Source: Sipunculus nudus (taxonomy: Eukaryota > Annelida > Sipuncula > Golfingiida > Sipunculidae). Taken from it: a stretch of DNA of 64,000 bases. A program made the position numbers and the translations under genes. The notes beneath the pieces were generated by a model that saw only the letters and a list, made by a program, of their open reading frames with translations, did no database searches and had not been told where the DNA came from. Shown piece after piece: positions 1-48,240 of this stretch (its first letter is position 1; each line of letters begins with the position of its first letter). Location of the stretch: positions 73,685,176 through 73,749,175 of the forward strand of contig CM049316.1 of NCBI GenBank assembly GCA_026874595.1. Direction: 5' to 3'.

Positions 1-36
1 TGGCCGGACGGACGACGGACAAAAGGTGATCCCTAC

Positions 37-69
37 AGCTCAGATGACTTTCAGTCAGCTGAGCTAAAA
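37..69 (+). repeat. A/B-type element 3' terminal hairpin
   Basis: AGCTCAGATGACT and AGTCAGCTGAGCT form a 13-bp stem with one mismatch and a 3-base loop, followed by AAAA. An ACGG-rich stretch precedes it from base 6. This is the same 3' end as at 4763, 14370, 38954 and 40799. Confidence 0.8.
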
Positions 70-3610: not shown

Positions 3611-4303
3611 AGAGTGAAGAATTTTGAGAATTAGCTGTAAATAATTTTGAAATGTGTATAAATATGTAGGTAAGAGTATGTGCATGTGTGTGTATGTATA
3701 TGTGTGTATATATTTGGGTGTATATATGGGTATATATATATATATAAATGTGAACGCGTGATCCTTCATGGATGTATATATACGTATGTATGTATAATTA
3801 AATTTTTATTCGGATCTGGTAAATATTATGTTGATCTGACCAAACCAGTTAAATCTACAAATAACATTGTTGTTCTTATTAAATTAAATGTTTGTTTCCA
3901 ATGATATTGAAAATATATCGACAGAACGAGATATAATTATAATTGTTGTAAAAAAAAATAAAAGTCTCTTCACCAATACTCGGTTGGTATCCTCTCGGCA
4001 GAAATACGTCTACATGGTCCATATGCACTTGTCTTTGAAAAAGTACAAACAGGTAGCAATATAAGCAATTTTATAAAATTCTCTTGTTAACTCCTTTTTG
4101 TTGATATATATATATGTATGTACTTTGTCAGAAAAACTTGAAACATTGTATTTTAAATCTTGCAATAGTGAAGATGTTCATGTTATAAACACAAGATTTG
4201 TAATTTTTTTTCTTGTTCCGAGGGATGTCGATGATGAAAAAGAACGTTATAAATAAATATTTAGTAATACTGAGACATCCAAAGAGAAAAAAAAAAAAAA
4301 AAA
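2091..4303 (+). mobile_element. 5'-truncated non-LTR retrotransposon (L1/Tx1-like LINE) with poly(A) tail
   Basis: This is a 2.2-kb insertion between two exact 14-bp copies of a satellite sequence. It begins in coding sequence, ends in a run of 17 A (4287-4303), and has an AATAAA about 30 bases before the tail (near 4252). The 3' untranslated part (3611-4286) holds TG/TA-rich runs around 3680-3780. Poly(A), a target-site duplication and 5' truncation together are the marks of target-primed reverse transcription. The reading frame is intact to its stop, so the insertion looks fairly recent. The endonuclease and the catalytic reverse-transcriptase motifs are absent, so this copy cannot move itself. 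Confidence 0.93.
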
Positions 4304-4797
4304 GAGAATGAAGATTCTAAGTCCAGTCATTACGATTTGTGCCTTGTTAACAGATGTTCACATTTTTAAAGGTCTCAAAAATAGAGAAAAAAATTCGTAA
4401 AAAATCGAAAAATACAGGTGGCGCCACCAGTCTTCAGGAACTGATGGAACCTCTCATGATCAATATGTATGCCAAAAATCATGACCATCAGTCAAGTAGT
4501 TAATGAGATATTGAAGTTTTTGTATGAAATTTTGGACTTTTCTGGGGGGTACTTTGGGGCCCCATAGCTCGAAGGATATGGGTAACAGAGACCTAATTTC
4601 TGGTTTCCAAGGAGATTTTTCATGGACCTCCCAGGATGTCAAGTAAGAAGATTCCAGTTCTAGCGGTTACGATTTGTGCCTGGTTAACGGACAGACAGAC
4701 GGACAGACGGACAGACAGACGGACAGACAGACAGACGGACGACGGACAAAGAGTGATCGCTATAGCTCAGATGACTTTCAGTCAGCTGAGCTAAAAA
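4304..4797 (+). repeat. Family A array, right end with ACGG/ACAG microsatellite and 3' hairpin
   Basis: The satellite resumes exactly at the second target-site copy (4304-4317). It contains one more unit with GGTGGCGCCACC (4417-4428), then the conserved GTAACAGAGACCTAATTTCT block, a TTACGATTTGTGCC block, an ACGG/ACAG microsatellite (about 4687-4747) and the hairpin TAGCTCAGATGACT / AGTCAGCTGAGCTA (4763-4793) followed by AAAAA. This is the outer right end of the whole left-hand repeat block. Confidence 0.85.
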
Positions 4798-5473
4798 CAG
4801 ATGATATGTATTTGATCTTCTATGATTTCTTGAGTATAATTTTTCAACTTTTGCAGTAACAAACCAATATTGTTTCTATGGTGCTCTCACCCGCCACATT
4901 TTTTTTATGATATTGTGTACTGCCACAGGAAATGTCAGAAAACCTTTTTCTTGCAAAACCTGAAATTTTTTTTTCACAAAAGGTGCATCTGAACTTAATA
5001 CTGAAGGTTGGAGAAGACAATTTAATTAAAATGTACAGAAATTATTTTTACTCAAAAGAGATTAATAGTCATAGTAACTGTAAGATATTTATGAATCTGA
5101 AGAAGTTTGGTTGGTTCATGGAGTAAGTTTTATAGGAGATTCATGAAAAGCTATTACAGGGCACAAATTAGGCTAAAACATTAACATGCTCCAGGTGCAC
5201 CCTTGAAACAAAACCTACATGCACCTAAAGATTTCAACATGCACCTTGTAATACTGGTGAGAACATTTACTTGTTAAGAAGTTTCTGTTGCTCAAAGAAT
5301 AGAAATGCTAATTTATAAATGTGATGTTTATGAATAGTAAAAAATAAGAAACCAACATTTTTTTTCATTGGTTTATAATACATGCACAGAATGCACCCTC
5401 AGTAGGATATCTTTTTCGCACCCTGTATTATAAGAGATTGATAAAGAAGGTATTATACAAGAGTGCCCTTTAC
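4798..5473. other. Intron 3 sequence without recognised features
   Basis: AT-rich intron directly downstream (minus strand) of exon 3. Short related strings CATGCACC/GTGCACC recur around 5190-5260 and 5390-5400, but no gene or clear repeat family is seen. Confidence 0.5.
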
Positions 5474-12492: not shown

Positions 12493-14405
12493 TAAACAAG
12501 GGACCTATGGGTCACTGTGCTCAGCTGACGTTAACCTTGAAGGTAAAAATCTAAAATAATATAAAATGGAGATAAAGTGTTAGAGGAAGAGGTAATAAAG
12601 GCCATGGTTGGTTTATATGATTGGTTTGTATTGATGAGCAAGAAATTGTTGCAAATAATATTTTGTTACCTGACCATGTGTTTCCTAAAGTTGAAACTGA
12701 AGCATGTGAGCAGTTTGTAAACAAATGATCTGTACAATTACCATGATCATTAGTTGGCTTTTCGATTAACTGTTGACATTTCAGTAGTTTACACATTTGT
12801 TCAATCGAATTCTTTTTTTTGTATAATATATATTATTAAATATGTTTTTTTATGAAATGTATACAGTTGAAATATAACTAATTAACAACATAAAAAATGG
12901 CAAACAAAGCCTGATCTCAAATTCTGCTGATGCAGGATAATAATGAACAAATGTTTGTAATAAATCCTCATTTTTTTATCACATCAATTTTTTTTTTAAT
13001 TTAAATTTATATTTCTATACATTTTCAATATAACATATATATCTGAATATAAAAGTTGATTCATAATTCTCAATTGCATCATCATAAATCTCAATCTTGT
13101 CAGATAACACCACATCATGCATACAAATGTTTATTTATTTTTTACCACAAAAATATATCTTTTAAATCTGCAAAACAATAAATATCTAAAAAAAATACTT
13201 GATTTAAATTTCACAGTTTTTAATTGTGTCTTTATTTATCCATAATGTGCTTCATATTTTATCATAATTTAAGCATACTGATGGGTTCCATTATGACTGG
13301 TAAAATCATTTAAAAGAAAAATGATTTCTTTAAAAATGCTACATTACACAACATTGCATCTTCTGGATTACACCTTGAATTACTTTTTCAAGGAAAGTTT
13401 TTGCATATCAGAGTGGAAACAGCATTACAATTAAGGAGATACAGTGAAAACAATAACAATACTGCATAACACTTGGTTGGTTGGGTTTGCGGGGGGGGGG
13501 GGGGGGGGGGGTGATTGGGGTTGTGATATGAGAATAACTGTACACCTGTCACAGCAGGGGATCTCCCCCAGTGACTGTAACAAATCAGAAACCCTGGCAT
13601 AGCTGACTTCCAGTGACCTGGAGTGGGACCCTGCATCTGTAATCTGTAATCAAAGCAAATGACTGCAATAGAGCCTCAAGAAAAAAATCAATAACTAGCT
13701 CAATTTTCAAGCTTTTACTTCCAAATTTCAGATTTAAACAAATTAAATATTTATGTTTACATGGTGTGAAAATTAAATCAATGGTACTTACAGGAAAAAA
13801 ACGTGCCATGGTCAAAGTTGGGCAAAATTTAAGGTACTGATTTTATTTTTATGCTAATTACTTAAAAAATTTACAAAATTCAGATCTAATTTTGGGTAAA
13901 CAATTGAATCTTAATTAAACATAGTTATATACTTGGGAAAATACTCTAGTTTCAAAATTTTTCATGTTAAGTGAGTAAATATTTTTCCTGATTTTTTACA
14001 AAGTCCATTATGTTTGGGCCCATAACTTAAAGAATTTATACTTAACAGACATAATTTCTGGCATGTACATAGGAACTATATAGAAGAATATTTATGGTAA
14101 ATATCAGGAAAAACAGATGAGTGGTTTTGATATTAGGCAGTCCTGAAGTGTGAAAATAGGATTTTAATAAAAAATTGAGGTTTTTCCTTAATTTTTCAAA
14201 GGAACAAAGTCGCAAAGACCCAGTTTTCAGCTTGGTAGGAGATCTTGGGGACATCTAACATTATGCTGAATTTTGGATTCCTAGGTCTTACGGTTTCAAA
14301 ACGTGCCACATCTACGGACGGACGGACGGACGGACAGACGGACGGACGACGGACAATGGACCACGACTATAGCTCAGATGACTTATAGTCAGCTGAGCTA
14401 AAAAA
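12493..14405 (+). mobile_element. Helentron-like non-autonomous element, A/B type (copy B1)
   Basis: The left end at 12493 reads AACAAGGGACCTATGGGTCA, containing a GACCTATGGGTC near-palindrome, then GCTCAGCTGAC (12519-12529). The right end is an ACGG microsatellite (about 14313-14355), then hairpin TAGCTCAGATGACT / AGTCAGCTGAGCTA (14370-14400) and AAAAAA. The 11-bp GCTCAGCTGAC at the left is the exact reverse complement of GTCAGCTGAGC at the right, i.e. subterminal inverted repeats. A family B core of about 0.7 kb occupies 13670-14290. The intervening 12.5-13.6 kb is AT-rich and unrecognised, so the pairing of these two ends is probable but not proven. Plus orientation, antisense to the gene. 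Confidence 0.7.
13491..13511 (+). repeat. Poly(G) run of 21
   Basis: 21 consecutive G, followed by TGATTGGGG. It lies inside the 12.5-14.4 kb element. It has strong G-quadruplex potential, and its length is likely variable or mis-assembled. Confidence 0.9.
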
Positions 14406-30335: not shown

Positions 30336-31260
30336 CTGATCGAAAATATTCATGCCAAATTCATATTCTTTTTACCTTGAGTTTTATTTTTTTACAGGAA
30401 ATTTAAAAATATCAATCCAAAGATTATAACTCTGCCATGAAAATGTCAGAGCCTCTAAATATGAAAATAGTTGTCAGTCATCCTTAGTGGTTGCTCTGAA
30501 AACTCATCAATAATTGTCCTTTCCAGAACAACACAGAAAAGCTCCATTTTTAAGTTATCAATCACTTTTGTACCCTGCTACAAACAGTCTGTCAGATAAA
30601 GAAGAAACCACAAGACCCTGTGGGCTCCTTAACTGAATATTTATAACTCATAGATACTTCTCATATAAGTGTGATAAAAACAACCTGACAAGTCCATGGG
30701 CTTGGGGCAATTTACAAACCTTGTCAGTATGTAGCTTTACAAGTAATCCCCTATATTTTTCCTATGATAAGTCCAGTCCAGCACTGACCTTGTAGTATTA
30801 CTGTACTTCTGCCTCTTTGAACCCAAGATCTGTTAAAGTTTCATCTCATTAAAAACAAGTACACTTCAAAGCATCAACAATATCCCAAGCTTCACTGGTT
30901 AAGCCTTGATGATGGAGATGAGAAACTTGACATTCTACCAGGTTTTATTACATACCTAGCAGATTATATTAAGATCATCATGGAGAGAACCATCAGAACC
31001 AAGTGAAATGGGCCAGGACAGTATGACAGGCTGTTAGTCAATAAAATTTATGAGGAATGAGATGTGTGGAAGAAAAATTTACAAAGATCTGGATGATAAA
31101 GAATATTTATATTACAGAGAAAGGCAGACTAAAATGAAAGAAAGAGAGAGAGAAGAAGATTTATCTGAATGAAAGTTAAAGAAAGAGAAAGGAGAACAGA
31201 AATCTTGAGATAAAAAGGGAAAGGTAGGGGTAGCCATACACACATTTGGTATAAAGAATA

Positions 31261-31293
31261 AACAAGTGACCCATGGGTCATGACGCTCAGCTG
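31261..31293 (+). mobile_element. 5' end of an A/B-type element
   Basis: AACAAGTGACCCATGGGTCA (the perfect palindrome TGACCCATGGGTCA) is followed by TGACGCTCAGCTGCC. This is the cleanest copy of the A/B 5' end in the window. The next A/B 3' hairpins on this strand are at 38954 and 40799. A family C element starts only 140 bp downstream. Confidence 0.7.
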
Positions 31294-31429
31294 CCTAGCA
31301 TGACCTGCGACATCATGGGCTGCGATTCACAACTAGTAAAATTGTTGCAGAACCTATATACCAATTTTGTTTAAACTTTCTACATTGCCATAAATTCTTA
31401 TCATATATGCCTGGTTAAAACATAGTGAA

Positions 31430-33747
31430 CTAGACATTTCTTGGCACCGCAGGTGCCAGAGTATCCCCAGACATAGTAGGCCCCCCCCTTTAAGAACAGA
31501 CCCCCATTTTTAGCAGCATATACTGACACTTGGCATATTTATTGTTTCTTCCATCTAACAATCCACAATCTTGTTGAAGATGTTGGTCCTGTGACCTTGA
31601 TCTTTTTTAAAGATGTGTCCTGTGACCTTGACCTTTGACCTCATGACCCCAAAATCAATTTGGGTCTTGCTTTTCCAATGGGACATATGCAAGTCAATTT
31701 TGAAATCTATACATCAATAAAGCAGGAATGATCATCCAGAAACTAATTTTTTTTACAGGTGGCTCCTGTGACCTTCACCTTTGACCTTGTGACCTTAAAT
31801 TGATAGTTTTTTTCCTCTCTTGGCAGGAGAACTATATGTGCAAGATGGAAGATCTGAGATGAAATGTTTGGCTGAAAATGCATCCACAATCTTTTTAAAG
31901 ATGTGTCCTGTGACCTTGACCTTTGACCTCATGACCCCAAAATCAATTTGGGTCTTGCTTTTTCAATGGGTCAAATACAAGTCAAGTTTGAAATCCATAC
32001 ATCAATAAAAGAAGGAATTATCATCCAGAAACTAATTTTTGGACAGATGGCTCCTGTGACCTTCACCTTTGACCTTGTGACCTCAAAATTGATAGGGTTC
32101 TTCCTCTCTTGGCAGGTGAACTATATGTGCAAGATGAAAGATCTGAGATGAAATGTTTGGCTGAAAATGCATCCACATCTTTTTAAAGATGTGTCCTGTG
32201 ACCTTGACCTTTGACCTCAGGACCCCAAAATCAATTCAGGTCTTGCTTTTCCAATGGGACATATACAAGTCAAATTTGAAATCCATACATCAATAAAAGA
32301 AGGAATTATCATCCAGAAACTAATTTTTGGACAGATAGCTCCTGTGGCCTTGACCTTTGACCTTGTAACCCCAAAATTTATATGGATTATCCACTATTGG
32401 CAAGTGAGCTATATATTCAAGATGGTAGACCTGGGATGAAAGTTTGGCTTAAAATGCATCCACATCTTTTTAAAGATGTGTCCTGTGACCTTGACCTTTG
32501 ACCTTATGACCCCAAAATCAATTTGGGTCTTGCTTTTCCAATGGGACATATACAAGTCAAGTTTGAAATCCATACATCAATCAAAGCAGGAATTATTATC
32601 CAGAAACTAATTTTTGGACAGATGGCTCCTGTGACCTTCACCTTTGACCTTGTGACCTCAAAACTGATAGGGGTCTTCCTCTATTGACAGATGATTTATA
32701 TGTGCAAGATGAAAGGTCTGAGATGAAATGTTTGGCTGAAAATGCATCCAAAATCTTTTTAAAGATGTGTCCTGTGACCTTGACCTTTGACCTCATGACC
32801 CCAAAATCAATTGGAGTTTTGCTTTTTCAATGGGACATATATAAGTCTAATTTGAAATCCATACATCAATAAAAGTAGGAATTATCATCCAGAAACTAAT
32901 TTTTGGACAGATAGCTCCTGTGGCCTTGACCTTTGACCTTGTGACCCCAAAATTTATATGGATCATCCACTATTTGCAAGTCAGCTATATATTCAAGATG
33001 GAAGACCTGGGATGAAAGTTTGGCTTAAAATGCATCCACAGTATCTTTTAAAATGCCAGTCCAGTGACCTTGACCTTTGAGCTCATGACCCTAGAACCTA
33101 TAGGGTTCTTACTTTAGTGGTGGGCCATACATAAGTCATGTTTGAAATCCATATGGCTATCAACACTGGAGATATCATAAAAGGTGTGTGATTTTCACCA
33201 TATATGGCAATATTCAAGGTCAAGGCCACTATCTTAGGAAAGGTCATGACCCAAATTCAAATAAACATCATCCCATAACCCATACCTATATATATGCATA
33301 ATATAAAAGAAATCTGTCCATTAGTTTTTGACTTATAATGCTCACAGTAATGTAAGGTGGCAATTTGGGGGTATTAAACGGCATGAAAACAAGTAAAGAA
33401 TAATAGGTGGCGCCACCAGTTTCTGGAACATGACAACCCTATCCATGATCTTCCATCAACTTGATTTTGGGATAAATCCATGCAAGATTTCTTGAGATAT
33501 TAAAGAATTTGTGTGATTTTCCCCAAAATTGGACCTATTCAAGGTCAAGGACACTCTCCTAGTAAAGGTCATGACCTCATTTTTAATAGGCAACGTCCTC
33601 TTACCCATATCTATACATATACCAAGTTTGGTAAAGTTCTGTGAAATATTTTTTGGGTTATCGCGCCAACAAGATTTATATGCGGCGGCGGCGGCGGGGG
33701 GACCGGTATGAAAACATAGTATCCCCCGACTTAGTCTGGGGATACAA
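31430..33747 (+). mobile_element. Family C Helentron-like element, copy C1 (2.3 kb)
   Basis: The 5' end reads CTAGACATTTCTTGGCACC; hairpin GGCACC-GCA-GGTGCC is at 31443-31457 and subterminal repeat GTATCCCCAGAC at 31461-31472. The 3' end has GTCTGGGGATAC (33734-33745), the exact reverse complement, which pairs with GTATCCCCCGAC (33719-33730) as a terminal hairpin. The core is five tandem units of about 288 bp; TGTCCTGTGACC starts at 31616, 31904, 32192, 32479 and 32768. A GGTGGCGCCACC-containing module (33406-33417) and a GCGGCGGCGGCGG run precede the 3' end. The same ends bound copy C2 at 46901-48240. No coding capacity: non-autonomous. Antisense to the gene. Confidence 0.88.
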
Positions 33748-33859
33748 TGATGGTCTGAGGCAAAATGTATGGTTGTTGAGCTATCAGGAACTAATCTCAA
33801 AGCTTGCTCGATACCTGTCAGTCTCAAAAGGAATACCACACAGGCCACATATAAGATCA

Positions 33860-34160
33860 AAATATAGCAAAAGATCAAGGATATCCATGCAAGAATTATT
33901 GTGAAACAGGTGCTTCCATATTAATTTTTATTCAATACAAGCCAACTGTACTAAGCTTTCATAAATGATGGTCATATTTATTAAGAAATCTTTGACCCAA
34001 TGCAAGATTACATTAATATACATCCCACTGCATTCACTTTTATAGTTCTTGAGATAATATGTTCTAAAGGAATTAAAAGATGGCTTCTTGGTGGCCATAT
34101 TGGATTTCTGACAGGTCGGAAATTGAACAACAAACATCCTCTAAAAGGGACCAAACATCA
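33860..34160 (+). repeat. Dispersed repeat G, unit left of the 34.2-kb element
   Basis: The block AAGATGGCTTCTTGGTGGCC / ATTGGATTTCTGACAGGTC / AACATCCTCTAAAAGGGACC resembles AAATGGCTACCTGGCAGACA / ATGGTTTTCTGACAAGTC / ATATCCTCCAATAAGAAAC at 39020-39110. The two units flank the 34162-38989 element, as if it had split a tandem repeat. Confidence 0.55.
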
Positions 34161-34161
34161 T

Positions 34162-37100
34162 AAACAAGGGACCTATGGGTCACGACGCTCAGCTGTTATA
34201 TATGATAAAAAAATATAATTTAGAAATGAGGCACATGCTGGTTTTGTGTGGTAATAAATATAAGCTGTATTATGAGTTGTTGTTGTTTAGCTTATGTATG
34301 ATTTTGATAGTACCTTTGGAGACAGGGATGAGGATTGATTTCATTTATTTTATTAACAAATGGAGTACTACTGTCACACAGATTTTGACTTGGCCATATA
34401 ACTTATAAGCAGAACATATATAATATAAGAGTTTAACTATTTATTAAAAAAATTACAAATATTGTCCCAAATATAATTTTTATTAAAAATAATAAGAAAA
34501 TCATATGATTTTTTAAAATGAAATATAACTGATATGATTATTAAAATAATATTAAAGAATATGTTCATGAATGCATTCATGAATACATTTTGAAAGTATT
34601 TGCACGAGTATTCATATACTTTCATTTTTACGTGAATTCCCATTCTTTATGCAAGAAATTTTATAATGGAGTACATAATCATATTTGTATTTAAATACAA
34701 TTACAAAGTATTCGCACCATGTCTGGTATTTATTCAGTTTTCACCAATCAAATATGTTGAGAATCCAGAATATACAAAATTCACACATTTAAATAATGAT
34801 AATAAGTACCTGGTTTTATGGCCTTTATTTATATTAAAAAATAACTGTAAAAAATTCATTTTGGACTAATTTCACATCAATGTACACACTAGACACAGTA
34901 GGAATCTAGATTAATATTATCAACTGTATCTTTGTCTATCATTAATTTCCTTCATATAATCCCTAATGATTAGTTATGAATAATATGATTTACTTCTTTA
35001 TCATTTAAATTGAACTGAAAAATGCCATAGGTGACTGCATGGTGTTATTTGGAATATGTGACATTCTACCCATCGATACAAGATTCTTATATCATCAGTA
35101 ACTGCAAGTTAATTTCCTGTTATTATAAACTAACAAATATCTTTTCTATTTTTCTTTAATTTGTTATTAAAAACCAATAAAAATTTATTAATTTATTGTT
35201 TATTGTTATGTTGTTGGTTAAAACTACTAGATGAGTTGGGTTTGACACCTGGATCAACTGTGGCTGGACATAAGCTGCCTGGATTCTCGCCTCAAGCGTG
35301 CATAATTTGATGAAAGGTCAACAAGGTCAACAAAGTGGTGACTCAAGAGGGGCTGGAGAGAGTCAAGGTCTGACATGGTCTCATTTAAACATTAATAAAA
35401 GCTACAAGTTTTGGCCAATTTCTTTCAGCTTTCTAAACTAAAAAGCTGAAATCCTTATATGTGCATGATATGAAAATTATATCAACAGTGCTCACGGGAA
35501 ACAAACGTGCCATGGTCACAGTTGGGCAAAATTTAAGGTACTAATTTTATATTTATACTAATAACTTATAAAATTTGAAAAATTCAGAACTAATTTTGGG
35601 TATTCAATTGAATCTTGATTAAATAATGTTACATCCCTGACAAAAAAATCTCTAGCTTCAGCAATGCCCTTGTTAAGGGAGTAAATATATTTCTTGATTT
35701 TTTACAAAGTGCATTATGTTTGGGCCCATAACTTAAAACAATTACGCAATACTGACATCATTCTGGCATGAGCATAGACAATGAAAAATATGTATATTAT
35801 TTATGATTAAAGTCAGATCAGTGGTTTTGATATAAGGCAGTCTTGAAGTGTAACAATGGGTTTTTAATGAAAAAATGAAGTTTTTCATTAATATCTTGAA
35901 GGTATTAAGTCCTAGTGACCAAATTCTTAGCATGGTAGGGGATTTTGGAGACATCTAACTGTATGCCGAATTTAAGGAACTTAGAGCTGAATCTGGGGAG
36001 CTGAGCTCTTGCAAACTGCATAACACTAGCTTGATGTAAACAATATGTTACATGGTGCTTGAAAACTTGATTAAAATTTACAGTTTTTGATCAACTGGTT
36101 TCAAATTTTTGGTTTTAACAGTTGAAATGCTAACAAAAACATGCTGTAAAAATTAAATCCACAGTACTTACAGTAAAAAAAACGTGCCATGGTCAAAGTT
36201 GGGCAAAATTTAAGGTACCAATTTTTTATTTTTATTGATATTTTAAAAAATTTAAAAGATTTTAATCCAATTTTGGGTATACAATTTAATTTTGATTAAT
36301 TAAAGTTATATAACTGGAAAAAAGGTCCATAGCTTTAATGTTTTTTGTGTTAAGTGATCAAATATCTTTCCTGATTTTTTACAAAATGCATCATGTTTAG
36401 GCCCATAACTTTTTTAAATTAAATAATAGAGACATAATTTCTGGCATGTATATAGGAACTATATAGAGGAATATTTATGGTAAATATGAGGAAAAACAGA
36501 TAAGTGGTTTTGATATTAGGCAGTCCTGAAGTGTGAAAATAGGTTTTAAATAAAAAATTGAGGTTTTTCCTTAATTTCTCAAAGGAACGAAGTTGCAAAG
36601 ACGCAGTTTTCGGCTTGGTAGGAGATCTTGGGGACATCTAACATTATGCCGAATTTTGGATTCCTAGGTCTGGACTGATACCTTTATTTCACATTCAAGG
36701 GAATAATACATTTAAGTTTATATATTATTTAAGCATATCCACTTTTTCCATTAAAATAGTTTTTATCTGATTAATTTTTTTTATTTACAAGTTTTATAAA
36801 TTTGTATTAAAAAAACACTGAAAATATAAGTTAAAATATTAGAATTCTTAGTTGCAATCATTATACATCCAGAGTGTAGCTCGTATTGGGTCATATTATG
36901 CATACACATATATTTTTATTATTTTTAAATCACAAATTTTTAAACTGAATTTAAAAGAAAATAATGCCACAACATGGCATCTGCAAGAGTATTCCTTGAA
37001 TCACTATTAAAAAGTTTTGCACATTGGAGTTTTCAGTACATGCTTAATCTTATTCACCAAAATAAAATAAGATTCTGTAAATTTGGTAAAATAAAAACAT

Positions 37101-38989
37101 CTTTTCAAATATAGTATACACACTGTTGGTTGAATGAGGGACAAACAATATCATTATGCTAATTACAATCTAAGCTTTAATTTATTCCTGGAATTAATAG
37201 TCAATTTCACACCTTGTGAAGTTTTTACTCTTCTCAAGGAAGGAATTACTTATCTGATGAACATCCACAATTTCATAGCAATACACCACTTTGTGGACAC
37301 AATTAAATGTGCACTTTAATCATTGTAACCCTGGTGGTAAATACAAAATCTAAAATGTAGCATAGCCAAGAATAAAATGAAATACAGAAAATTATAACAT
37401 TCATCTAGTTAATGCATCATCTAGGGGGGGGGGAGGGTGTGCAGGGCAGAGAAGAAGCCTGCTAGTAGTGGCCCAGCTGAGCCAAGACAAGCTGCCTGGG
37501 GTGGGTTACATAATGCAAGTAAAGGCTTTACTACTAGGTGGGCTAGATGTCAACAACACTTGACATGGTGTATGAAAACTTGAATAAAAGCTACTCTTTT
37601 CAATCAATTCCTTTGAAATTTCAGATTTTAAAAGATTAAATCCTTATGTATATATGCTGTGAAAATTAAATCAACAGTGCTTACAGAAAAAAAACATGCC
37701 ATTGCCAAAGCTGGACAAAATTAAGGGTATTGATTTTTTATTTAAGCTAATAACTTGAAAAATTTGCAAAGTTCAGATATAATTTTGGGTAAACAAGGGA
37801 ATCTTGATTAAATAAAGTTATATTCCTGACAAAAAGTCTCCAGCTTCAGCAATTCTCATCTAAGGTAAGTAAATATATTTCTTGATTTTTTAAAAAGTGC
37901 ATTATGTTTGGGCCCATAACTTAAAAATTTAAAAAAAAATACACAATACTGACATCATTTCTGGCATGTGCATAGCAAATGTATAGAAAAATATGTATAT
38001 TATATATGATCAAAGTCAGATCAGTGGTTTTGATATGAGGCAGTCTTAAAGTGTAACAATGGGGTTTTAATGGAAAAAATGAAGTTTTTCATTGATATCT
38101 CGAAGGAATTAAGTCCTAGTGAACAAATTCTTGGCATGGTAGGGGATTTTGGAGAAATCCAACTGTATGCCAAATTTAAGGAACTTAGAGCTGAATCTGG
38201 GGAGCTGAGCTCTAGCAAACTGCATAACACCTGCTTGATGTAAACAATATGTTACATGGTGCTTGAAAACTTGATTAAAATTTACAGTTTTTGATCAACT
38301 GGTTTCAAATTTTTGGTTTTAACAGTTGAAATGCTAACAAAAACATGCTGTAAAAATTAAATCCACAGTACTTACAGTAAAAAAAAACGTGCCATGGTCA
38401 AAGTTGGGCAAAATTTAAGGTACCAATTTTTTATTTTTATTGATATTTTAAAAAATTTAAAAGATTTTAATCTAATTTTGGGTATACAATTTAATTTTGA
38501 TTAATTAAAGTTATATTACTGGAAAAAAAGTGCTTAGCTTCAACAAGTTTTGTGTTAAGTGATAAAATTTCTTTCCTGATTATTTACAAAATGCATTATG
38601 TTTGGGCCCATAACTTTTTTAAATTATATAATACAGACCTAATTTCTGGCATGTACATAGGAATTATATAGAGGATTATTTATAGGAAATATGAGGAAAA
38701 ACAGATGAGTGGTTTTGATATTAGGCAGTCCTGAAGTGTGAAAATAGGTTTTTAATAAAAAATTGAGGTTTTTCCTTAATTTCTCAAAGGAATGAAGTCG
38801 CAAAGACCCAGTTTTCGTCTTGGTAGGAGATCTTGGGAACATCTAACATTATGCTGAATTTTGGATTCCTAGGTCTTACGGTTTCAAAACGTGCCACATC
38901 TACGGACGGACGGACGGACAGACGGACGGACGACGGACAATGGACCACGACTATAGCTCAGATGACTTATAGTCAGCTGAGCTAAAAAA
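34162..38989 (+). mobile_element. Composite A/B-type element with four family B cores (4.8 kb)
   Basis: The 5' end is AAACAAGGGACCTATGGGTC followed by GACGCTCAGCTG (34162-34195). The 3' end is an ACGG microsatellite (about 38902-38937) and hairpin TAGCTCAGATGACT / AGTCAGCTGAGCTA (38954-38984) with AAAAAA. Inside are four diverged family B cores at about 35440-35990, 36120-36670, 37640-38180 and 38350-38880. Each has AACGTGCCATGGTCA-like, TTGGGCAAAATTTAAGGTA, TTTGGGCCCATAACTT, TGGTTTTGATATTAGGCAGT-like and GGAGATCTTGGGGACATC-like blocks. Cores 1+2 and 3+4 share the same junction (GAGCTGAATCTGGGGAGCTG), so a two-core unit was duplicated. Single insertion versus several nested ones is unresolved. 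Confidence 0.65.
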
Positions 38990-39130
38990 TCACAGAAACT
39001 GCCCTGGCAAAAGGATTTCTAAAATGGCTACCTGGCAGACATAATGGTTTTCTGACAAGTCTGACATTTGATATCACATATCCTCCAATAAGAAACTAAA
39101 CTTGTAGCAATTGCTTCAAAGAATGTAATA
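38990..39130 (+). repeat. Dispersed repeat G, unit right of the 34.2-kb element
   Basis: Partner of the block at 33860-34160 (see there). Confidence 0.5.
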
Positions 39131-39859
39131 GTTATGAACGTCCAAAACAATTCAAAAGGCATGATCAGGTTGGAGAGCTCTCATATCAGATTTATGAACA
39201 TGCAAATGTAAAAAGTGCAAGTCCAATTTGTTTTAATTATCAGCTTGCTATTCAATGGGGTCAGCAGGGTAGGTAAACTGCAAAACCTAAAAGAAAAGAA
39301 ATGCAGAAAGCATCACTAAGAGTCTTGTAATCAAATAAAGCCATCCTAAATCCAGGTACAGACCCACATATTATCAGAACAAACACTTGCTGGTATATCT
39401 GATGATTTGTATAATAATATTCAGATATCTAGAAAACTAAGTTTATTGCTATGATTCCATGATATATACTGCAACATGTTCCCATCATTTTATAAATCAG
39501 TAGCTAAACCATAAAACTCTACTCTCATAGTCTTAATGCCTGGCCAAAGCATTCCGGCAACAGTGTTTTTGTTATGCACTAATGATATATCCTTATCACT
39601 CCATGAGCTGATACAAAAGGGAGTCATATATCACAAGTGTCACTGACAATTATGGGCACATAGTGAGATGTACCAGTTGTGAGTGCCATGGTTATATATA
39701 CAAGAAAACAAGAAAAATAGAGATGGTCTACAAAATAAGTTATTGTGAACATCCCTGACCTATGACCTTGGCCTTTTGCCCACATATCAACTGCATTCTT
39801 TCTAAATGATGGGTAACTACTAACCACTTACATCTGGCCGGGTGTAATTACTTGGCAAC

Positions 39860-40833
39860 CAATGAGTGAATAACTTAGACCTGCAACCTTTAACCTCCTG
39901 ACCAGCTGACCTAAAATCAATTAGTTATTTCTTCATGCAAAAAGACCCATAAATATGAAGTTTGAATCTAATTCAGTGATGCACAGATGTGGCATATGTG
40001 AAAGACTGAAGGTTTGGGTTGAACATTTTCACTTGAAATATGTTCACAAGTATTTAGAACAATATTGTGACCTTGACCTTTGACCTTTTGAACTCAACAT
40101 CAATAGGCTTCTTCTCCTATTGGTAGGTAAGTGATATATGACAGATGGAAAGTATAAATTGAAAAGTTTGCCTTAAAATGACTCCAAACAAGAAGAGGGT
40201 GCTGTGAACTTGACCTTTGTCCTCAAAATCAACAAGTCTTTCCCCTGTTATATCAGTGCTGAAAGGTTTGGAATGAAAGGTCTAGCTTGAAATGTGTCCA
40301 TAACCTTTTCAAAGAAGTGGATCTTGTGACCCTGACCTTTGACCTTGTGACCTCAACATCTATAGGATTCTTCTCCCACTTAGTAGGTGAGCTATATGTG
40401 AAAGATCAAAGAATTGGGATGAAAGGTTTGGCTTAAAATGCATCCTGAGGCTTTTCAAAGAAGTTGGTTCTGTGACCTTTGACTTTGTGACCTCAAAATA
40501 ATTATGGTTCTTCCCCTGTTGGTAGGTGAGCTGTATGTGAAAGATGGAAGGTTTGGGATGAAAATTTTGGCTAAAAGAATTATTTCTGGGGGTGCAAACA
40601 CACCCCATAACTTCGAGAATATAGGTCGCAGTGACCTAATTTCAGGTTTGCAAGGAGATCTTTTTAGAACCTCTAAGACTGCAAAGGGTTCATGGCCCTA
40701 GCCCCTACGGTTACGATTTGTACCCTGCTAACGGACAGACGGCCGGCCGGACGGACAGCCGGACAGACGGAAGGACGACGGACAAAGACCCAAGGCTATA
40801 GCCCAGCATGACTAAAAGTCAGCTGAGCTAAAA
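39860..40833 (+). mobile_element. Chimeric element: family C-like core with an A-type 3' end
   Basis: The core is C-like: GTGACCTTGACCTTTGACCT (40069-40088), with a further GACCTTTGACCTTGTGACCT copy near 40336, and GTAGGTGAGCTATATGTGAA-type blocks. From about 40600 it switches to the family A end: GTGACCTAATTTCAGGTTTG, TACGGTTACGATTTGTACCC, a degenerate ACGG microsatellite (about 40732-40783), then hairpin TAGCCCAGCATGACT / AGTCAGCTGAGCTA (40799-40830) and AAAAAA. The 5' end was not located. It shows that core and terminus are exchanged between families. Confidence 0.75.
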
Positions 40834-43800
40834 AAACTTTCAGTTTAGAGAGTCAGCTTGGTCATGAATATTATATACATACATAAATATATATATATAT
40901 AATATTCTGGTATATAACAAGTATACCTATACAATAGCTGGCATATACCAGGACTTATGAAAAAACACCTGCATGAATTAGAACTCAATACTGTGCCTCC
41001 TGTAGTGTGACTGTGATACTGAAAATAATACAATGGTTTACTGTGACAACAATAGTATCAGAAGCCATAAAAGGACTCTACAACCATGCAGTTGTGAGTG
41101 TAGAGCTAAATTGGCATTACAGACTTTTTCTTTGACCTTATCTATTTATGACCAACCTCAACAAACAGTCAATCAACAATAAATCATTCAACAGTGGCCA
41201 TTTTTTTCCCTTTCCCCACAAATATGTGTTATCTTTAAAACATTTAAATCACTTGGAATGTTTAACTTACTTGCCCATGTACTGCTAGATCAAACAACAG
41301 AATGAACTTTTATATGCATGTATGAGGCTGTTTTTTCTTTTCTAGTTGTCTGACAGACTGAGTAATGACCAACACTGACTGGGTCACTAATGCCTAATGA
41401 CAAATAATGGCATAACATTACTTATGACAGCAAACTTTGAGGTGAATCTTTAGTTTCAACAGAAAGATCAACTGATCCTGAGTAGGCCATCGGCTTACAT
41501 GGCTAAAGGTCTCTTGTTACTCCACCAAAGACAATATAGAAATATTGTTAAAACCCAGATAATGACTCTTGACATTACAACACCAGGTCATGAGTTTCAT
41601 AATTATTCAAAGCCTCAGGTATAGAAAACAAAACTCCTCAAGACTTAATAAACATTTGTGTTTATAAACACATTCTTACAGATTATATTTGCATGGTTTC
41701 CTTCTTCTTCATCAAGAACACAGTGACCACCTACATGACTTATGTAGAAAATCTTGATCCTAGAGGCAGAAGAACGAAATCTAATATTTTTTTTGTATAA
41801 GATGATACAATTTCAGTATTACAGAGTTACTATAATAAGATTCATGTCGGTCAGACATTACCCCTTAACCAATGCTGTAAGCAATATGTTTAACATGTAA
41901 GCAATTCAGTTGAGCCAGTTGGTATTTTAAAGAGATAATTACACAATACACTGAGAAAATAAGTAAGAAAAATATCAAAACATATTTTGACTGAATTTAA
42001 TGACACGAGAAGTATCTGAAAATAAATCTCATACTTAAATTAAAAAGAAATTAAAAATATTTACCATTAAGTAAAATATATCCTCAGGCTACATTATACA
42101 AAAGCTAAGATCAAATGGAAGAACGAAGTATGTAAAAATGTGATGATAATTTTATTTTGGAATTTGTAAACTAAATAGAAAAATATCTTTACCAGTATAC
42201 AATGTACAAGATTAAACTTAAAGAATGTATTATTTTCTTATTCCCTAAAATTTTCATAAACAAAAGATTATGCCTTAAAACATATACACTCTTCATGAAA
42301 ATGGTTATTGGTGTAACAGACTGAAGCATTTTTATGGTCTGAGATGTGTTCAAATCAATGGAAACTTTGCTACAAAGAGCCCATGAACACATTTTCAAGC
42401 AAATTAGTGAGAGCTGAGGCATCTGTTGGCTCTTGAAATCTTCCGCCATTTGCATTAACCACCAATTAAACCAATACTTCTACACCATTGGGATATTCAC
42501 AGTCAATTGTATTTTACAGGTTGTTCTTATAATTATGCCCAAATATCGACATAAATGGATAACTGGATATATGATTATCTGAAAGTCCATTCAAATAAGG
42601 CTTCTTAATAGTCAGCCCTAATTTGAAGTGGAGAAAATAAAAATTACAAGCCTACAGAATGTCCTGTTTTAGACATGTCATCTCCTTGAGGTGTTAACAA
42701 GAGGAAGAGTTGTTATTTAACAGGAAACATTGAATATAAACTTCCTACTTGGTGTTTATTTTCTTTGGGTAGCTCGTTTTTACAGAACCAATTACTCCCT
42801 TGTATTTTTTTCCTGTCGCTTTTCTTAACAAGGAGCATGTGTTGAATGAATCATTTATTTCTTCTCCTTTTGAAGCTGATTATCAGTGGCAGGGTCCTGT
42901 CTCTTCCAGGCTGGGGCTGATTTATACATTGCTCTTCTACAAAACCTTGTCTTCCTACACAGACAAAACACTCTTGCTTCCCCATTCATAAAACTTATCC
43001 CATATCCATCTCTAATCAATACAGCTTAATCAATGGACAAATTTGTTTTCTTGGATACTCTTACCAACTTACTGCTACTAACTGTCAGACTGTGCTTTCT
43101 TATATGAACCCTTTCTATCCAAGAGCCAACTAAATGTCAGACAGTATATCATCTACCTTAAAGCATGTCTTGTATAATGTGATATATGTGTCACATATAA
43201 AGTCCTGCAGGACTAAACATTCATACAGACTAGCAAATCCTTGTATTTATGTGGTAGGTTAATTCTTAAGTATTTAATTGCAACAGCAGGCTAAATTTCT
43301 CACCCAATAAACCTGGTAGCAGACAAAACTTGAGAATTAAGGGGATAACTTCCTCAAAATGCTATAGCAGATTTCACAATTAACTATCATGACGAGCTTT
43401 GCCATCCTTCAGATGACCACAGATAAATACTTCTTGATTACGGTATGATCACATATTTTAACTGGCAAAGTAATTTTGAACTTTCTCTATAATCTGCAAA
43501 AAGCTGTCCATGGGAAATCTTACCAGCATATTTCCATACATGTTTATTCAATCAAAATCTTTTTCATGACCCATCTGAGAGTTTTTCAGCATGCTGCATA
43601 ATTAATCTGCAGTATTACCGGTATATAGTATGGCACAGTATGATAACAGCAAATCCATGTTTCACTTTTATCATAGATTTAACTTTAAACAAAAATGAAG
43701 ACAATAAACCTTGTAGTTTTGAAATGTTCAATGTAGCATTACCTCTGTCATCCAGACTTTACTTGTATTTTCATGAGAAAATCACACAACCCTTGTGCAA

Positions 43801-44760
43801 CAATTAGCCCTGTATAGATAATCATAAACAATATTTTGTGTTTTGTGACGCATGGGTCAATGATAATTAAATTGTGTTAAGTGACTTAACATCTTAAAAT
43901 TACCTGAAAACAATGATTTAAAATGTACCTAATTGCATTTTAACAGTTTTTAAAGTGCAAGATAAACTACATGTACTTGGGCATGATTTGAACTGATATC
44001 CCCAGTACTTGAAAGACTTCTTTGGTCCATAAGAAGCTTTGGTTCATTTCATCATGACGTTTTGACTGAAAATATATGAAACAGTGACCTCCTCCACTAA
44101 CAACCATTGCATATAGCATGTTGACACATTATAAGTAAAACTAATGCTCATCATTTACACACACCATCTCACATGACAGCCAATAAAGTATCAAGTGACA
44201 CTTTCTCTTGACCCTTACAATTCGTAGTACAGTAAATATGATCTGACACAAGTTGTGTTTAACATAGGTCCATGCCATGTTGGTAGCATTGCAAGGTTAT
44301 TGAATGAGATACAGATGACCTATGATTTTGTTGCCTTCTGGATTTCAGCTTTATATATCTATGATTTGGGAATAATCCAAATATATTAGATACATAAGAC
44401 TGGATCTCTGAGGATCTTGAGAGATTTCACTAAGCTGCATTCAAAACTTTGTCTTTCAACTGCGAAGGCATATAAGGCTACATTCTACCCCCTCATAATT
44501 TAACTGAAGTGTTATGATTTTCATTCGGTCCATAAAACATTTATAGTCTGACAAGCAATAACCTAATATGGGAGGAGATGTGTGACATTATATATAATGC
44601 AGGGGTCCACAAATCATGTTAGGAAACATTTATGAACTAAAAACAAAAAGGTTTAACAAAAATATTTATAGGCTGTCTTTGATGTGGTAAAGGATTTGTC
44701 TTGTTAGAGGCAGTATACAATGATTTATAATCCTGTTGTGAATTGGCATCAGCGACGAAA
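40834..44760. other. Intron 1 sequence without recognised features
   Basis: AT-rich, single-copy-looking sequence. GTGACGCATGGGTCA near 43847 recalls the A/B 5' end but lacks the following GCTCAGCTG. Confidence 0.5.
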
Positions 44761-44773
44761 CAAAATATTCATT

Positions 44774-44799
44774 GGGGGGGGGGCATAGTAGACATATGT

Positions 44800-44839
<40 letters not shown>

Positions 44840-44875
44840 GGCCATGGCCTGACCCAAATGGAAGGGGGGGGGGGT
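44774..44875. repeat. Poly(G) and (AT)n microsatellite cluster
   Basis: A G run at 44774-44783, an AT dinucleotide run at about 44801-44836, a CATGGCCATG palindrome, then a second G run at about 44864-44873. Likely unstable in length. Confidence 0.9.
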
Positions 44876-45104
44876 GCAGTAATTAAGCGGATGCGAGGAT
44901 ATGGAAAAGTTTGTAAAACTGTATGTATACTTCTACTTCTGGTGCATATTTGAGTCATTTATTGGTCAATGCTTACTTAGAAAAAAAATAAAAAAAGATT
45001 ATATCAACTTTGCAATATTTTTTTTTGCACCTCAATTCCTAGAGGAGCTGCTGTGCTGCCATTTATGGATGAAATCACACATATGAACAAGCACATACTT
45101 ATTA

Positions 45105-46097
45105 AACTAGAATACGGGTAGTTGACAAGCAACTACATGTATCCGCCAAAATCAGAGAAGGACGGGTGAAGTGAGGCATGGATTAAGTGGCAAGGGGAAA
45201 TAAAGTTACATGTGTTACATATTAGAATGGATCTCTGCCACATAAACATGATTGTAGGTGGTGCCACCTGTTATTTGAACAAGAAACTATCCAAGATGTA
45301 TACACATGCAAAATTTCATGTGGAAAAGTTAAACCACTGCAGAGATATGAGTGATTTTATCCCACAGCAGACAAACAAATGGACGTTGTGCAAAAATGGC
45401 TGCAGGTGGCGCCACCATTTTTGTGTATGTTATAAAGCTATCCAAGGTCTACATTTGCTACATTTTTTTCCTGATTGGTCAAACGGTTCCAGAGATAAAA
45501 GCATTAATGTCTGCAGCGTGAACGTGAATGTAGGTGGCGCCACCTGTCATAAAAATTTAAGAAAGCTATCCAGGAAGTAAAAGCATGCCGAATTACAGGT
45601 AATTTGGTCAAACCACTGCAGAGATTTGAATGATTTTTAACCCAAGGCAGACAAACAGATAGACGCTGTGCAAAAATGGCTGCAGGTGGCACCACCATTT
45701 TTGTGTAGGTTTTTAAGCTATCCAAGGGCTATAGTTGTGTATTTTTTCCTGATTTGTTGAACAGTTCCCAAGATATGAGCTTGGATGTCTGCAGCGTTAA
45801 CGTGAATGTAGATGGCCCCATCTGTCATAAAATCAAGAAAGCTATCTAGGAAGTAAAAGCATGCCAAATTACAGGTAATTTGGTCAAACCACTGCAGAGA
45901 TTTGAGTGATTTTTAACCCAAGGCAGATGAACAGATGGACACTGTGCAAACATGGTTGCAGGTGGCGCCACCTTTTTTTGTGTATGTTATTAAGCTATTC
46001 AAGGGCTACATTGATGTAAATTTTTTTTCCTGATCGGTCAAACGGTTCCCGAGATAAAACATAGTATCCGCAAAACTTTGTTTTGGCGGATACAATA
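45105..46097 (+). mobile_element. Family D Helentron-like element, copy D1 (1.0 kb)
   Basis: The 5' end CTAGAATACGG is followed by hairpin GTAGTTG-ACAAG-CAACTAC (45118-45136), then subterminal repeat GTATCCGCCAAAA (45139-45151). The 3' end is TTTTGGCGGATAC (46081-46093), the exact reverse complement, which pairs with GTATCCGCAAAAC (46064-46076) to make the terminal hairpin; ACAATA follows. The core is an about 278-bp higher-order repeat carrying two palindromes each: one series at 45257, 45533 and 45812, the other at 45405, 45685 and 45961, with GGTGGCGCCACC as consensus. It has no recognisable coding capacity. It shares CTAGA, CATAGTATCC and GGATACAA end strings with family C. Confidence 0.88.
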
Positions 46098-46244
46098 ACT
46101 AGGTCTAGATATTGCCTACAAATTTCATATAGCAACATTGCAATATGTGGCAGTGTATTGTGATACTATCATTCTATCAATTTACAGGAAATAAGTGTGT
46201 TTTCTTTTGTAATATACTATAATACATAGATATATAAATATATC

Positions 46245-46515
46245 ATGGCCAATGGCCAATTGACATTTAGACTGCACCAAACCACCATCCAGATCTGGTC
46301 TGGAGTAATTCCTGATTGGTCCAGAAAGGATCCTGACTGGGATTCAATCTTGCCTAAATCCCAATCTTCAATTTATGACATAAAGAATGACTCCTGTCTA
46401 ATTGGTGCAAGGTCATGGGACTTTGGCTGGCCCAGATCGAAATAAGGGTGTAAATGCCGAACCAAATCCTAATCAGGATTTGTCTGGACCAATAAGGTCC
46501 AGATTGGTCATATAA
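46245..46515. repeat. Dispersed repeat J, copy 2
   Basis: Contains CCAGATCTGGTCTGGAG, CCTGATTGGTCCAGAAAGG, ATCAGGATTTGTCTGGACC and AAGGTCCAGATTGGTC. These strings are partly mutual reverse complements, so the block can fold back. It is related to 30200-30335. Confidence 0.55.
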
Positions 46516-46574
46516 AATCTGATGTCACCATAATTATAAGTATTATTATTATTTCACACAGAAAAGATGTAAAA

Positions 46575-46690
46575 ACTAGAATACAGTTAGTCAACAAGCT
46601 ACTTGTATCTGCTGATATCAGAATGGTATGGATAAAGTGAGGCATGATCATGTGGTAAGGGGAAATAGAGTAAAATGTTTTGCAGACTTG
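46575..46690 (+). mobile_element. Family D 5' end fragment (D2)
   Basis: AACTAGAATACAGTTAGTCA..GTATCTGCTGATATCAGAA, then GTGAGGCATGATCATGTGG and AAGGGGAAATAGAG, align with the first 110 bp of D1 (GTGAGGCATGGATTAAGTGG, AAGGGGAAATAAAG). The 5' hairpin is degenerate. GTATCTGC matches the GCAGATAC at 50929-50936, so this may be the 5' end of a disrupted element whose 3' end is there. Confidence 0.65.
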
Positions 46691-46900
46691 CAGTATTGAT
46701 GGGGTGTAGCCATGAAAACATGACATTCAGGCCTTCTAAAATAAATTGATAGGGGCCTGCCAATCATGATACAAGTCATAACAGAACACCCAATCTATGG
46801 GTCAGATCACAATATTTGCTGTCTTGTAGTATTGGACATCAGGGGCTTAATTTGCTCAATAATGAAGAAAAATGTTGTTACACAAAATTAATCACATTAA

Positions 46901-48240
46901 CTAGACATTTCTTGGCACCGCAGGTGCCAGAGTATCCCCAGACATAGTAGGCCCCCCCCCCCCCCTTAAGAATAGTCCCCCATTTTTAGCAGCATATACT
47001 GACACTTGGCATATTTATTGTTTCTTCCATCTAACAATCCACAATTTTGTTGAAGATGTTGGTCCTGTGACCTTGAACTTTTTAAAGATGTGTCCTGTGA
47101 CCTTGACATTTGACCTCATGACCCCAAAATCAATTCGGGTCTTGCTTTTCCAATGGGGCATATGCAAGTCAAGTTTGAAATCTATACATCAATAAAGCAG
47201 GAATTAACATCCAGGAACTGGATTATCATTCAGGACAAGTTTGAAATCTATACATCAATAAAGCAGGAATTATCATCCAGGAACTGGATTATCATTCAGG
47301 ACACAGTTTGAAAATGCATCCACAATCTTTTTAAAGATGTGTCCTGTGACCTTGACCTTTGACCTCATGACCCCAAAATCAATTGGAGTCTTGCTTTTTC
47401 AATGGGACATATATAAGTCAAATTTGAAATCAATACATCAATAAAAGCAGGAATTATCATTCAGAAACAAATTTTTGACAGATAGCTCCTGTGGCCTTGA
47501 CCTTTGACCTTGTGGCCCCAAAATTTATATGGATCATTCACTATTGGCAAGTGAGCTATATATTCAAGATGGAAGACCTGGGATGAAAGTTTACTATAGT
47601 GGTGGGCCATACATAAGTCATGTTTGAAATCCATATGGCTATCAATACTGGAGATATCAAAAGAGGTGTGTGATTTTCACCATATATGGCAATATTCAAG
47701 GTCAAGGCCACTATCATAGGAAAGGTCATGACCCCAATTTAAATAAACATCATCCCATAACCCATATATTATATATACCTATGTATATGCATAATATAAA
47801 AGAAATCTGTCCATTAGTTTTTTACTTATAATGCTCACAGTACTGTAAGGTGGCAATTCTGGTGGTATTAAACGGCACAAAAACAAGTAAAGAATAATAG
47901 GTGGCGCCACCAGTTTCTGGAACATGACAACCCTATCCATGATCTTCCATCAACTTGATTTTGGGATAAATCCATGCAAGATTTTTTGAGATATTAAAGA
48001 ATTTGTGCGATTTTCCCCAAAATTGGTCCTATTCAAGGTCAAGGACCTCTCCTAGTAAAGGTCATGACCTCATTTTAAATAGGCGTCGTCCTCTTACCCA
48101 TATCTATACATATACCAAGTTTGGTAAAGTTCCGTCAAATATTTTTTGGGTTATCGCGCCAACAAGATTTATATGCGGCGGTGGGGGCGGGGGGACCGGT
48201 ATGAAAACATAGTATCCCCCGACTTTGTCTGGGGATACAA
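46901..48240 (+). mobile_element. Family C Helentron-like element, copy C2 (1.3 kb)
   Basis: Same ends as C1: CTAGACATTTCTTGGCACC, hairpin GGCACC-GCA-GGTGCC (46914-46928), GTATCCCCAGAC (46932-46943) at the left; GTCTGGGGATAC (48227-48238) at the right, pairing with GTATCCCCCGAC from 48212. It has fewer 288-bp core units than C1, and one junction shows a small internal duplication (CAGGAACTGGATTATCATTC, twice near 47212 and 47277). The GGTGGCGCCACC module is at 47900-47911. A C run follows the left end and is longer than in C1. Confidence 0.88.

Follow-up and report, generated by a model that had tools for sequence, protein, structure and literature searches.

The pearl elements of bivalves, considered here by description, carry their ends around tandem repeats, a feature that recurs in the repeats treated below. 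The present work concerns three families of repeats, A/B, C and D, that lie in a 64,000-nucleotide stretch of the genome of the sipunculan Sipunculus nudus (C11:73685176-73749175, hereafter the window; the genome comprises 1.43 Gb in 153 contigs). Their layout is the one published for Helentron-associated elements (HINEs) and Helitron2, and we assign them, with a probability of roughly 0.86, to the non-autonomous rolling-circle transposons of the Helitron2/Helentron class, moved by the mechanism outlined below, with an element named P2 as the provider for A/B and probably a separate provider for C and D.

Helentrons and HINEs described from mites and Drosophila (PMC4067079) offer a close parallel. 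As reported there, an autonomous element encoding Rep, helicase and endonuclease is accompanied by matching HINEs that have subterminal inverted repeats (subTIRs) 2-4 nt from the 5′ end, a 3′ palindrome and no resolved target duplication, all as in S. nudus; the families described here differ in having the 3′ subTIR nearer the 3′ end, and P2 terminates in CTTG. By description, a close match for A/B is Cg_HINE of the oyster Crassostrea gigas (PMC7492417), which has an 11-12 bp 5′ subTIR and inverted repeat (IR) at one end, a 3′ subTIR with palindrome at the other, a GTCC-type microsatellite and a central array of satellites, and a T-rich target without duplication. The Results of that report describe no autonomous partner. 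C and D differ from Cg_HINE by their A|T targets and CTAG termini, and have the ends described for proto-Helentron-Pi of Phytophthora infestans (5′ TT, 3′ CTAG, A|T insertion without duplication, the absence of duplication being seen here at the clean C sites; PMC4067079). The latter is reported to be autonomous, with a Rep that lacks the endonuclease, whereas the C/D members found are non-coding and carry subTIR hairpins and satellites. Finally, the FoHeli elements of Fusarium oxysporum (PMC5148889) resemble those described here in their asymmetric terminal inverted repeats and in including members with inverted open reading frames (ORFs). FoHeli1/2 likewise have hairpins at both ends but start with TCAG and end with ATTTT; their TNAT target, whose following base is given differently in a legend and in the text, resembles that of C/D.

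No description of the S. nudus families was found in the literature searched, supplements and Repbase being outside that search, and among the papers listed for the terminal strings none is a transposon paper by title. A/B, C and D belong to a known rolling-circle type; the more interesting part is an insertion rule common to all of them, TNW|TT, together with the terminal type that C and D have in common.

Ends of the three families

The comparison of ends covered copies fetched from the genome (14 of A, 11 of C, 9 of D) plus those of the window itself (2 A, 2 C and 1 D), and a single terminal arrangement recurs throughout this set. Read on the minus strand, it consists of a 5′ TT, a string S, a loop and the complement of S, which together form a hairpin, then a core or satellite, and at the other end the inverted string S′, a palindrome and a 3′ CT(A/T)G. 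If the TT is counted as element, A reads TTA + S whereas C and D read TT + S, which places the 5′ subTIR 2-4 nt inside the terminus, with its complementary IR close by; the inverted 3′ subTIR and the palindrome stand near the 3′ end, the palindrome being deleted in one C copy (L037). The 3′ ends of two copies (L016 and L038) escaped the first end patterns and were seen in later reads.

Family A starts with TTAGCTCAGCTGAC TATAA GTCATCTGAGC and finishes with GTCAGCTGAGC..GTGACCCATAGGTCCCTTG; family C starts with TTGTATCCCCAGAC AAA GTCGGGGGATAC and finishes with GTCTGGGGATAC TCT GGCACCTGCGGTGCC AAGAAATGT CTAG; family D starts with TTGTATCCGCCAAAA CGA AGTTTTGCGGATAC and finishes with TTTTGGCGGATAC..GTAGTCGCTTGTCGACTAC..ATTCTAG. 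C and D have in common the start TTGTATCC...GGATACTATGTTTT and the finish CTAG, and both TTGTATCC and GGATACTATGTTTT lie outside the family-specific part of the string. Judged from these letters, C and D cannot be treated as independent where their ends are concerned. An earlier note on this DNA had proposed that three families with unrelated cores share one terminal architecture. The plan itself recurs in the fetched copies; two amendments concern the likeness between the C and D ends and the orientation. The Rep gene of P2, the autonomous element with A/B ends, is in minus orientation and reads away from the hairpin toward the palindrome, so that the 5′ and 3′ ends assigned in that note have to be interchanged. 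The expectation that element ends coincide with the hairpins was borne out in A, C and D.

In the window, family C is represented by two complete copies, both on the minus strand. Copy 1 runs from 5′ TTGTATCC... (33747) to ...CTAG 3′ (31430), limits that agree with the fetched copies and with the empty sites of sister copies; a host A precedes it and a host T follows. It comprises a terminal hairpin made of 5′ subTIR and IR (33719-33745), a 3′ subTIR (31461-31472) and the 3′ palindrome GGCACC TGC GGTGCC (31443-31457), 9 nt before CTAG. Copy 2 (46901-48240) has the same ends, with the hairpin at 48212-48238, the 3′ subTIR at 46932-46943 and the palindrome at 46914-46928. A complete D copy, TTGTATCCGCCAAAA...CTAG, occupies 45107-46095 of the same strand, with host A before and T after; its hairpin lies at 46064-46093, its 3′ subTIR at 45139-45151 and its palindrome, GTAGTTG CTTGT CAACTAC, at 45118-45136. 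The C string GTATCCCCAGAC (31461 and 46932, reverse complement at 33734 and 48227) and the D string GTATCCGCCAAAA (45139, reverse complement at 46081) are placed as previously described. For the A/B string in the interval 31261-48240 this applies to the exact reverse complement (38972 and 40818) but not to the left copies, which match 9 of 11 letters (31285, ...CTGCC; 34187, ...CTGTT). The exact 11-mer pair is found outside that interval, at 12519 and 14388, as the subTIRs of the complete A copy 1 (12497-14401, minus strand). A copy 2 (34165-38985, minus strand), TTAGCTCAG...CTTG, has a doubled core (1.3-kb direct repeat, 89%), a 5′ terminal hairpin at 38956-38982 and an imperfect 3′ palindrome, GACCCATAGGTC, at 34170-34181, directly before CCCTTG.

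These strings are very abundant. With the same pattern read backwards serving as control, the A/B string GCTCAGCTGAC occurs 28,179 + 28,318 times genome-wide (control 36 + 20), the C string 4,492 + 4,480 times (control 22 + 29) and the D string 6,658 + 6,632 times (control 14 + 7), an excess of two to three orders of magnitude. Used as a DNA query, one copy of each family gave 56 matches for A (40 scored of 4,358 first-look candidates), 171, partly listed, for C (40 of 6,508) and 59 for D (40 of 11,465). Among the best-scored matches, identities are 95-98% in A and 83-91% in D over long matches, and in C mostly 94-96% over the first 650 bases, with one match of 87% over a longer stretch. Because of this ranking, A looks the youngest of the three families. 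In one region (G000:C1:1407094-1422081) plus and minus matches of GTATCCCCAGAC alternate, a pattern that suggests five tandem family C elements, four of ~2.26 kb and one of ~3.4 kb, separated by 300-570 bp.

A Helentron with A/B ends

The Rep profile PF14214 gave 143 matches in the genome (150 of 195 candidates scored). In one of the Rep lineages, P2, a pair of copies (C17:35630192 and C5:42912065; 14,885 and 16,128 bp) carries A/B ends at both termini, as placed by walking outward and comparing the two. The 5′ end, TTAGCTCAGCTGACTGAAAGTCATCTGAGC (one base differs in the C17 copy), is accompanied by a GTCC-type microsatellite and lies upstream of Rep; the 3′ end, GTCAGCTGAGCATCATGACCCATGGGTCACTTG, lies downstream and terminates in CTTG. 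The 3′ end recurs in a third copy with a single base changed. The C17 copy contains an uninterrupted 2342-codon frame with the domains PF14214 (Helitron_like_N, E 1.9e-27) and PF05970 (PIF1, E 3.5e-23) and an endonuclease-like domain that matches below threshold. On its predicted domains, P2 is a Helentron by the definition given in PMC4067079, and the common ends indicate that it is the autonomous partner of A/B. Consistent with this interpretation, the 5′ region of P2, including the same 5′ satellite, finds matches of up to 96% over 562 bp in two B-type stretches of the window (1-2091 and 4302-4798).

The earlier suggestion of a HINE identity holds for A/B, which combine a 5′ subTIR and IR, a GTCC-type microsatellite, a 3′ subTIR with palindrome, a T-rich target whose sole possible duplication is the ambiguous TT, and an autonomous element, P2, with the same termini; for C and D no partner was found in the Rep loci examined. 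Tying a very abundant repeat family to its gene-encoding parent makes donor, ends and target testable together.

Target sites

Host flanks were read for 16 A, 12 C and 10 D copies, counting TT as element and leaving out C copy L037. The third host base before the junction is T in 38/38 copies. The base directly before the junction is A in all 12 C copies, A in 8 and T in 2 of the 10 D copies, and T in 14 and A in 2 of the 16 A copies; after the element, the first base is T in 38/38 and the second T in 37/38. One target rule, TNW|TT, fits A/B, C and D with one exception in 38 copies. A/B are mostly found at T|TT, C and D mostly at A|TT. All 16 A copies sit in TT(T/A)|TT sites, the empty sites confirming the T-rich host sequence; read from inside the element, A stands before TT in 13/13 C and 8/10 D copies. 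The T|T and A|T habits that divide Helentrons from Helitrons may thus be two settings of TNW|TT, one used by A/B (T|TT, CTTG) and the other by C/D (A|TT, CTAG).

Joined flanks were compared with all sequence collected, the sites found being paralogous. Usable hits spanning the junction were obtained for 8 of the 16 A and 4 of the 12 C copies. Three of the four C sites are clean, with neither gain nor loss at the junction (L027, 93%; L031 and L036, about 82%); the fourth (L028) departs from its hit by 6 nt, at 7-12 nt from the junction, and was not counted as clean. Two of the clean sites lie in the window, inside A copy 2, and have a clean A|T junction: that of L027 at 34837-34997 (93%, 161 columns) and that of L031 at 35397-35556 (82.5%, 160 columns). 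In family A, two additional T were seen at 5 of the 8 usable T-rich sites, in the best hit for L016, L017, L021 and L024 and in most hits for L014. The earlier note had named duplications typical of DNA transposons as an outcome that would refute its reading; no longer target duplication was seen in A or C, and D had no usable site.

How the families may move

A/B, C and D have kept the ends and nothing else: a 5′ TT with a subTIR folding on its IR, and at the 3′ side the inverted subTIR, the palindrome and CT(A/T)G. Movement would depend on a Rep-helicase encoded outside the element, which would recognise the hairpin at the 5′ end, introduce a nick and displace a single strand until the 3′ palindrome brings it to a halt. 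The displaced product, presumably passing through a rolling-circle intermediate, would then insert at a TNW|TT site without creating a longer duplication. As the provider for A/B, the ends point to the endonuclease-bearing Helentron P2, whose terminal pair is that of A/B and whose 5′ satellite is also that of the B type. C and D are two families that share a terminal type (TTGTATCC...CTAG, A|T target); their provider is probably related to P2 but a separate element.

Insertion between A and T is the habit of canonical Helitrons (Helitron1), and the proportions (12/12 in C, 8/10 in D, only 2/16 in A) raise the question of whether C and D are canonical Helitrons whose mechanism is unrelated to that of A/B. 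We consider this unlikely. It would accommodate the clean A|T junctions at three of the four usable C sites and the 3′ palindrome of C and D, which stops 11-13 nt before the 3′ end; the terminal CTAG of C and D (CTGG in L033) also fits the Helitron1 consensus CTRR, which the CTTG of A does not. The 5′ ends tell otherwise, beginning with TT in C/D and TTA in A rather than with TC, and subTIRs at both ends plus a 5′ IR are the mark of Helitron2. Relics of a Rep lineage that is probably canonical do exist: a search with one of them, L002, gave 4 matches including itself (8/8 candidates scored). These four (L001, L002, L140 and L141) have frames with stops or are fragments, and the surroundings of the two relics that were extended, L140 and L141, gave no blast match to C or D sequence, each holding one TTGTATCC string without a hairpin. 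A canonical-looking 3′ end (GGTGACCCAGCGGGTCACC, 6 nt, CTAAT) is seen at L141, the odds of its arising by chance not having been assessed.

That P2 alone mobilises A/B, C and D, the terminal strings being tolerated variants, is a still more doubtful proposition. The common layout and the nearly identical target rule, TNW|TT, speak for it, as does the presence of a D-like element upstream of Rep, at the same site, in three P2 copies (L049 2763, L053 1889, L120 634, in Rep-strand coordinates). The D-like element is, nonetheless, nested there as a complete insertion that ends in a CTAG of its own, and flanking stretches of L050 align (72-73%) without it; its position at one site in three copies implies that it was carried along by the Helentron. 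The three 3′ ends of P2 determined and both 5′ ends carry the A/B string, not that of C/D, and the two types differ in terminus and preference (CTAG and A|T for C/D, CTTG and T|T for A/B). The string TTGTATCCACCAAAA upstream of P2 Rep genes, tried as an autonomous 5′ end, was rejected, as it is part of this complete nested D-like element.

Where the earlier note left open whether one machinery or several related ones serve the three families, we regard several related ones as likelier because P2 has the A/B ends, a second Rep lineage has another string, and C/D differ in end and target. Miniature inverted-repeat transposable elements of a cut-and-paste transposon, with inverted repeats that resemble hairpins, would also be short, non-coding, flanked by inverted strings and present in thousands of copies, but the asymmetric termini, the clean C empty sites without target duplication and a Rep-helicase element with A/B ends make this highly improbable, the empty-site evidence coming from C and the partner from A/B.

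Several observations weigh against the Helentron-class assignment and the mechanism proposed above. The loci examined, with a minority of the 143 Rep matches followed out to their ends, yielded no Rep that carries C/D ends. The endonuclease domain of P2 (PF03372, Exo_endo_phos) reaches E 2.2e-4 and 21.5 bits against a Pfam cut-off of 24.5, GDFNID being visible by eye. The distance between the 3′ subTIR and the 3′ end is 22 nt in A, 31 nt in C and 32 nt in D, shorter than the 38-60 bp reported for mite HINEs (PMC4067079); we do not take that spacing as class-defining, because a Fusarium legend gives about 20-40 bp (PMC5148889). The base counts at the junctions lean somewhat toward the rule, since the end patterns, which tolerated mismatches, included junction bases and the copies were drawn from those with the best scores. 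For D, 2 of the 10 copies had empty-site hits (L040 and L041), at 74-75%, and these were left out of the counts. Among the A sites, L014 shows +2 in 19 of 23 hits but 0 in the best one, and a consistent +2 is absent from L015 (+1 in 16 of 19 hits), L023 (+1 in 6 hits, +2 in 4) and L013 (-6 or -7, not interpretable). Moreover, the two extra T of family A may be the element's own 5′ TT or a 2-bp duplication, which are inseparable in a T-run; the same ambiguity is reported for HINEs (PMC4067079).

Rep loci and the source of C and D

The Rep loci examined comprise seven that were extended upstream, a further P2 copy (L120/L121) and 12 fragments (L122-L133). Eleven of the fragments gave a printed reading, and by eye ten have the P2-type motif GSPH-HM, while L131 resembles P2 without it; L132 gave no reading. 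Around the Rep genes examined, C/D ends were seen solely as the nested D-like element. The search for an autonomous Rep-helicase behind each terminal pair, which the earlier note had recommended, has thus led to P2 for A/B and, in these loci, to none for C/D. Should the C/D parent prove to have a Helentron-clade Rep without endonuclease, it would be the counterpart in this genome of the Phytophthora intermediate.

The Rep loci also differ in their ends and in the position of an endonuclease-like stretch. Group 2 carries A/B ends, with the stretch at the C-terminus of its frame; in group 1 units, which carry the string CTTGCCGGAAAT, it lies downstream of Rep (by eye); in group 3 it is 40.8% identical to P2 over 125 amino acids. 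Group 3, which consists of L051 and a close copy on C7, seems to be a segmental duplication, since matches extend over the probes between -13 kb and +6.4 kb but are absent at +9 kb.

Group 1, a second Helentron lineage with CTTGCCGGAAAT ends, was observed at L094/L062 (C7:31563965-31589518), L064/L072 (C11:50.4 Mb) and L135-L137. A blind search for its subTIRs returned noise only. Its palindrome end lies upstream of Rep, which means that Rep is inverted relative to the ends; inverted ORFs are reported in Helitron2-like elements (PMC5148889). The left boundary was seen in five copies (C7, C11:50.4 Mb, C13, C8 and C11:18.3 Mb), both boundaries solely in the C7/C11:50.4 Mb pair, about 25.6 kb apart. 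A second hairpin end of the same type inside the unit, near the left boundary (C7 and C13), makes a shorter element or a composite possible. At L095/L072 (C11, around 50374838) two CTTGCCGGAAAT-ended elements stand directly head to tail (hairpin end, CAA, CAAG palindrome), an arrangement as would be expected of rolling-circle concatemers.

A palindrome in the satellites

The 12-bp palindrome GGTGGCGCCACC is present 111,729 times genome-wide as an exact match, compared with 14 times for its reversed control. In the window it occurs at 84, 838, 1853, 4417, 33406, 45405, 45533, 45961, 47900 and 63333. In the sequence collected, it appears in three unrelated contexts, namely D satellites, B/P2 satellites and, once, family C; within the first 100 places listed, several arrays show a spacing that switches back and forth between about 130 and 149 bp. 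When the 121 windows of the B, D1 and D2 monomers are ranked, GGTGGCGCCACC comes 6th, 10th and 11th by per-base match and 4th, 42nd and 12th by perfect copies. This ranking is unbiased by the picking of good palindromes, whereas higher earlier figures were inflated by selection (sites with <=3 mismatches). The palindrome is well conserved in the monomers, not uniquely so.

It is conceivable, although doubtful, that GGTGGCGCCACC is an internal signal shared by the rolling-circle families, a dimeric site for a host or element protein that the elements have spread through the genome; the binding role is a guess. If true, GGTGGCGCCACC would be a protein-binding site dispersed by transposons. Its core resembles AGGTGGCGC, which we take to be a motif of the insulator protein CTCF. 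The literature searched held no paper pairing AGGTGGCGC with CTCF and, judged by title, none on Helitrons, CTCF and molluscs together; the GGTGGCGCCACC string itself turns up there in a chitinase paper.

Other elements in the window

The remaining features all lie on the minus strand. The B-type element or elements at 1-2091 consist of 5′ ends and a 340-bp satellite and match the P2 5′ region at up to 96% (1-562) and about 72-80% (837-2091); the B-type 5′ part at 4302-4798 does so at 85-86%. The 5′ end of a further A/B-type element, with hairpin and microsatellite, is found at 40602-40835 (70-83% to the P2 5′ region), and a lone A/B-type 3′ end without partner at 31263-31293 (match 31259-31293, 97% over 34-35 nt to P2 3′ ends). 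ACGG/GACA (GTCC-type) microsatellites adjoin the A/B 5′ hairpins at 14314-14354, 38902-38938, 40731-40771 and 4690-4748; the same motif class is reported in oyster HINEs (PMC7492417). Finally, self-comparison (45104-45219 against 46573-46684, 76%) identified the 3′ end of a truncated D-like element at 46574-46690.

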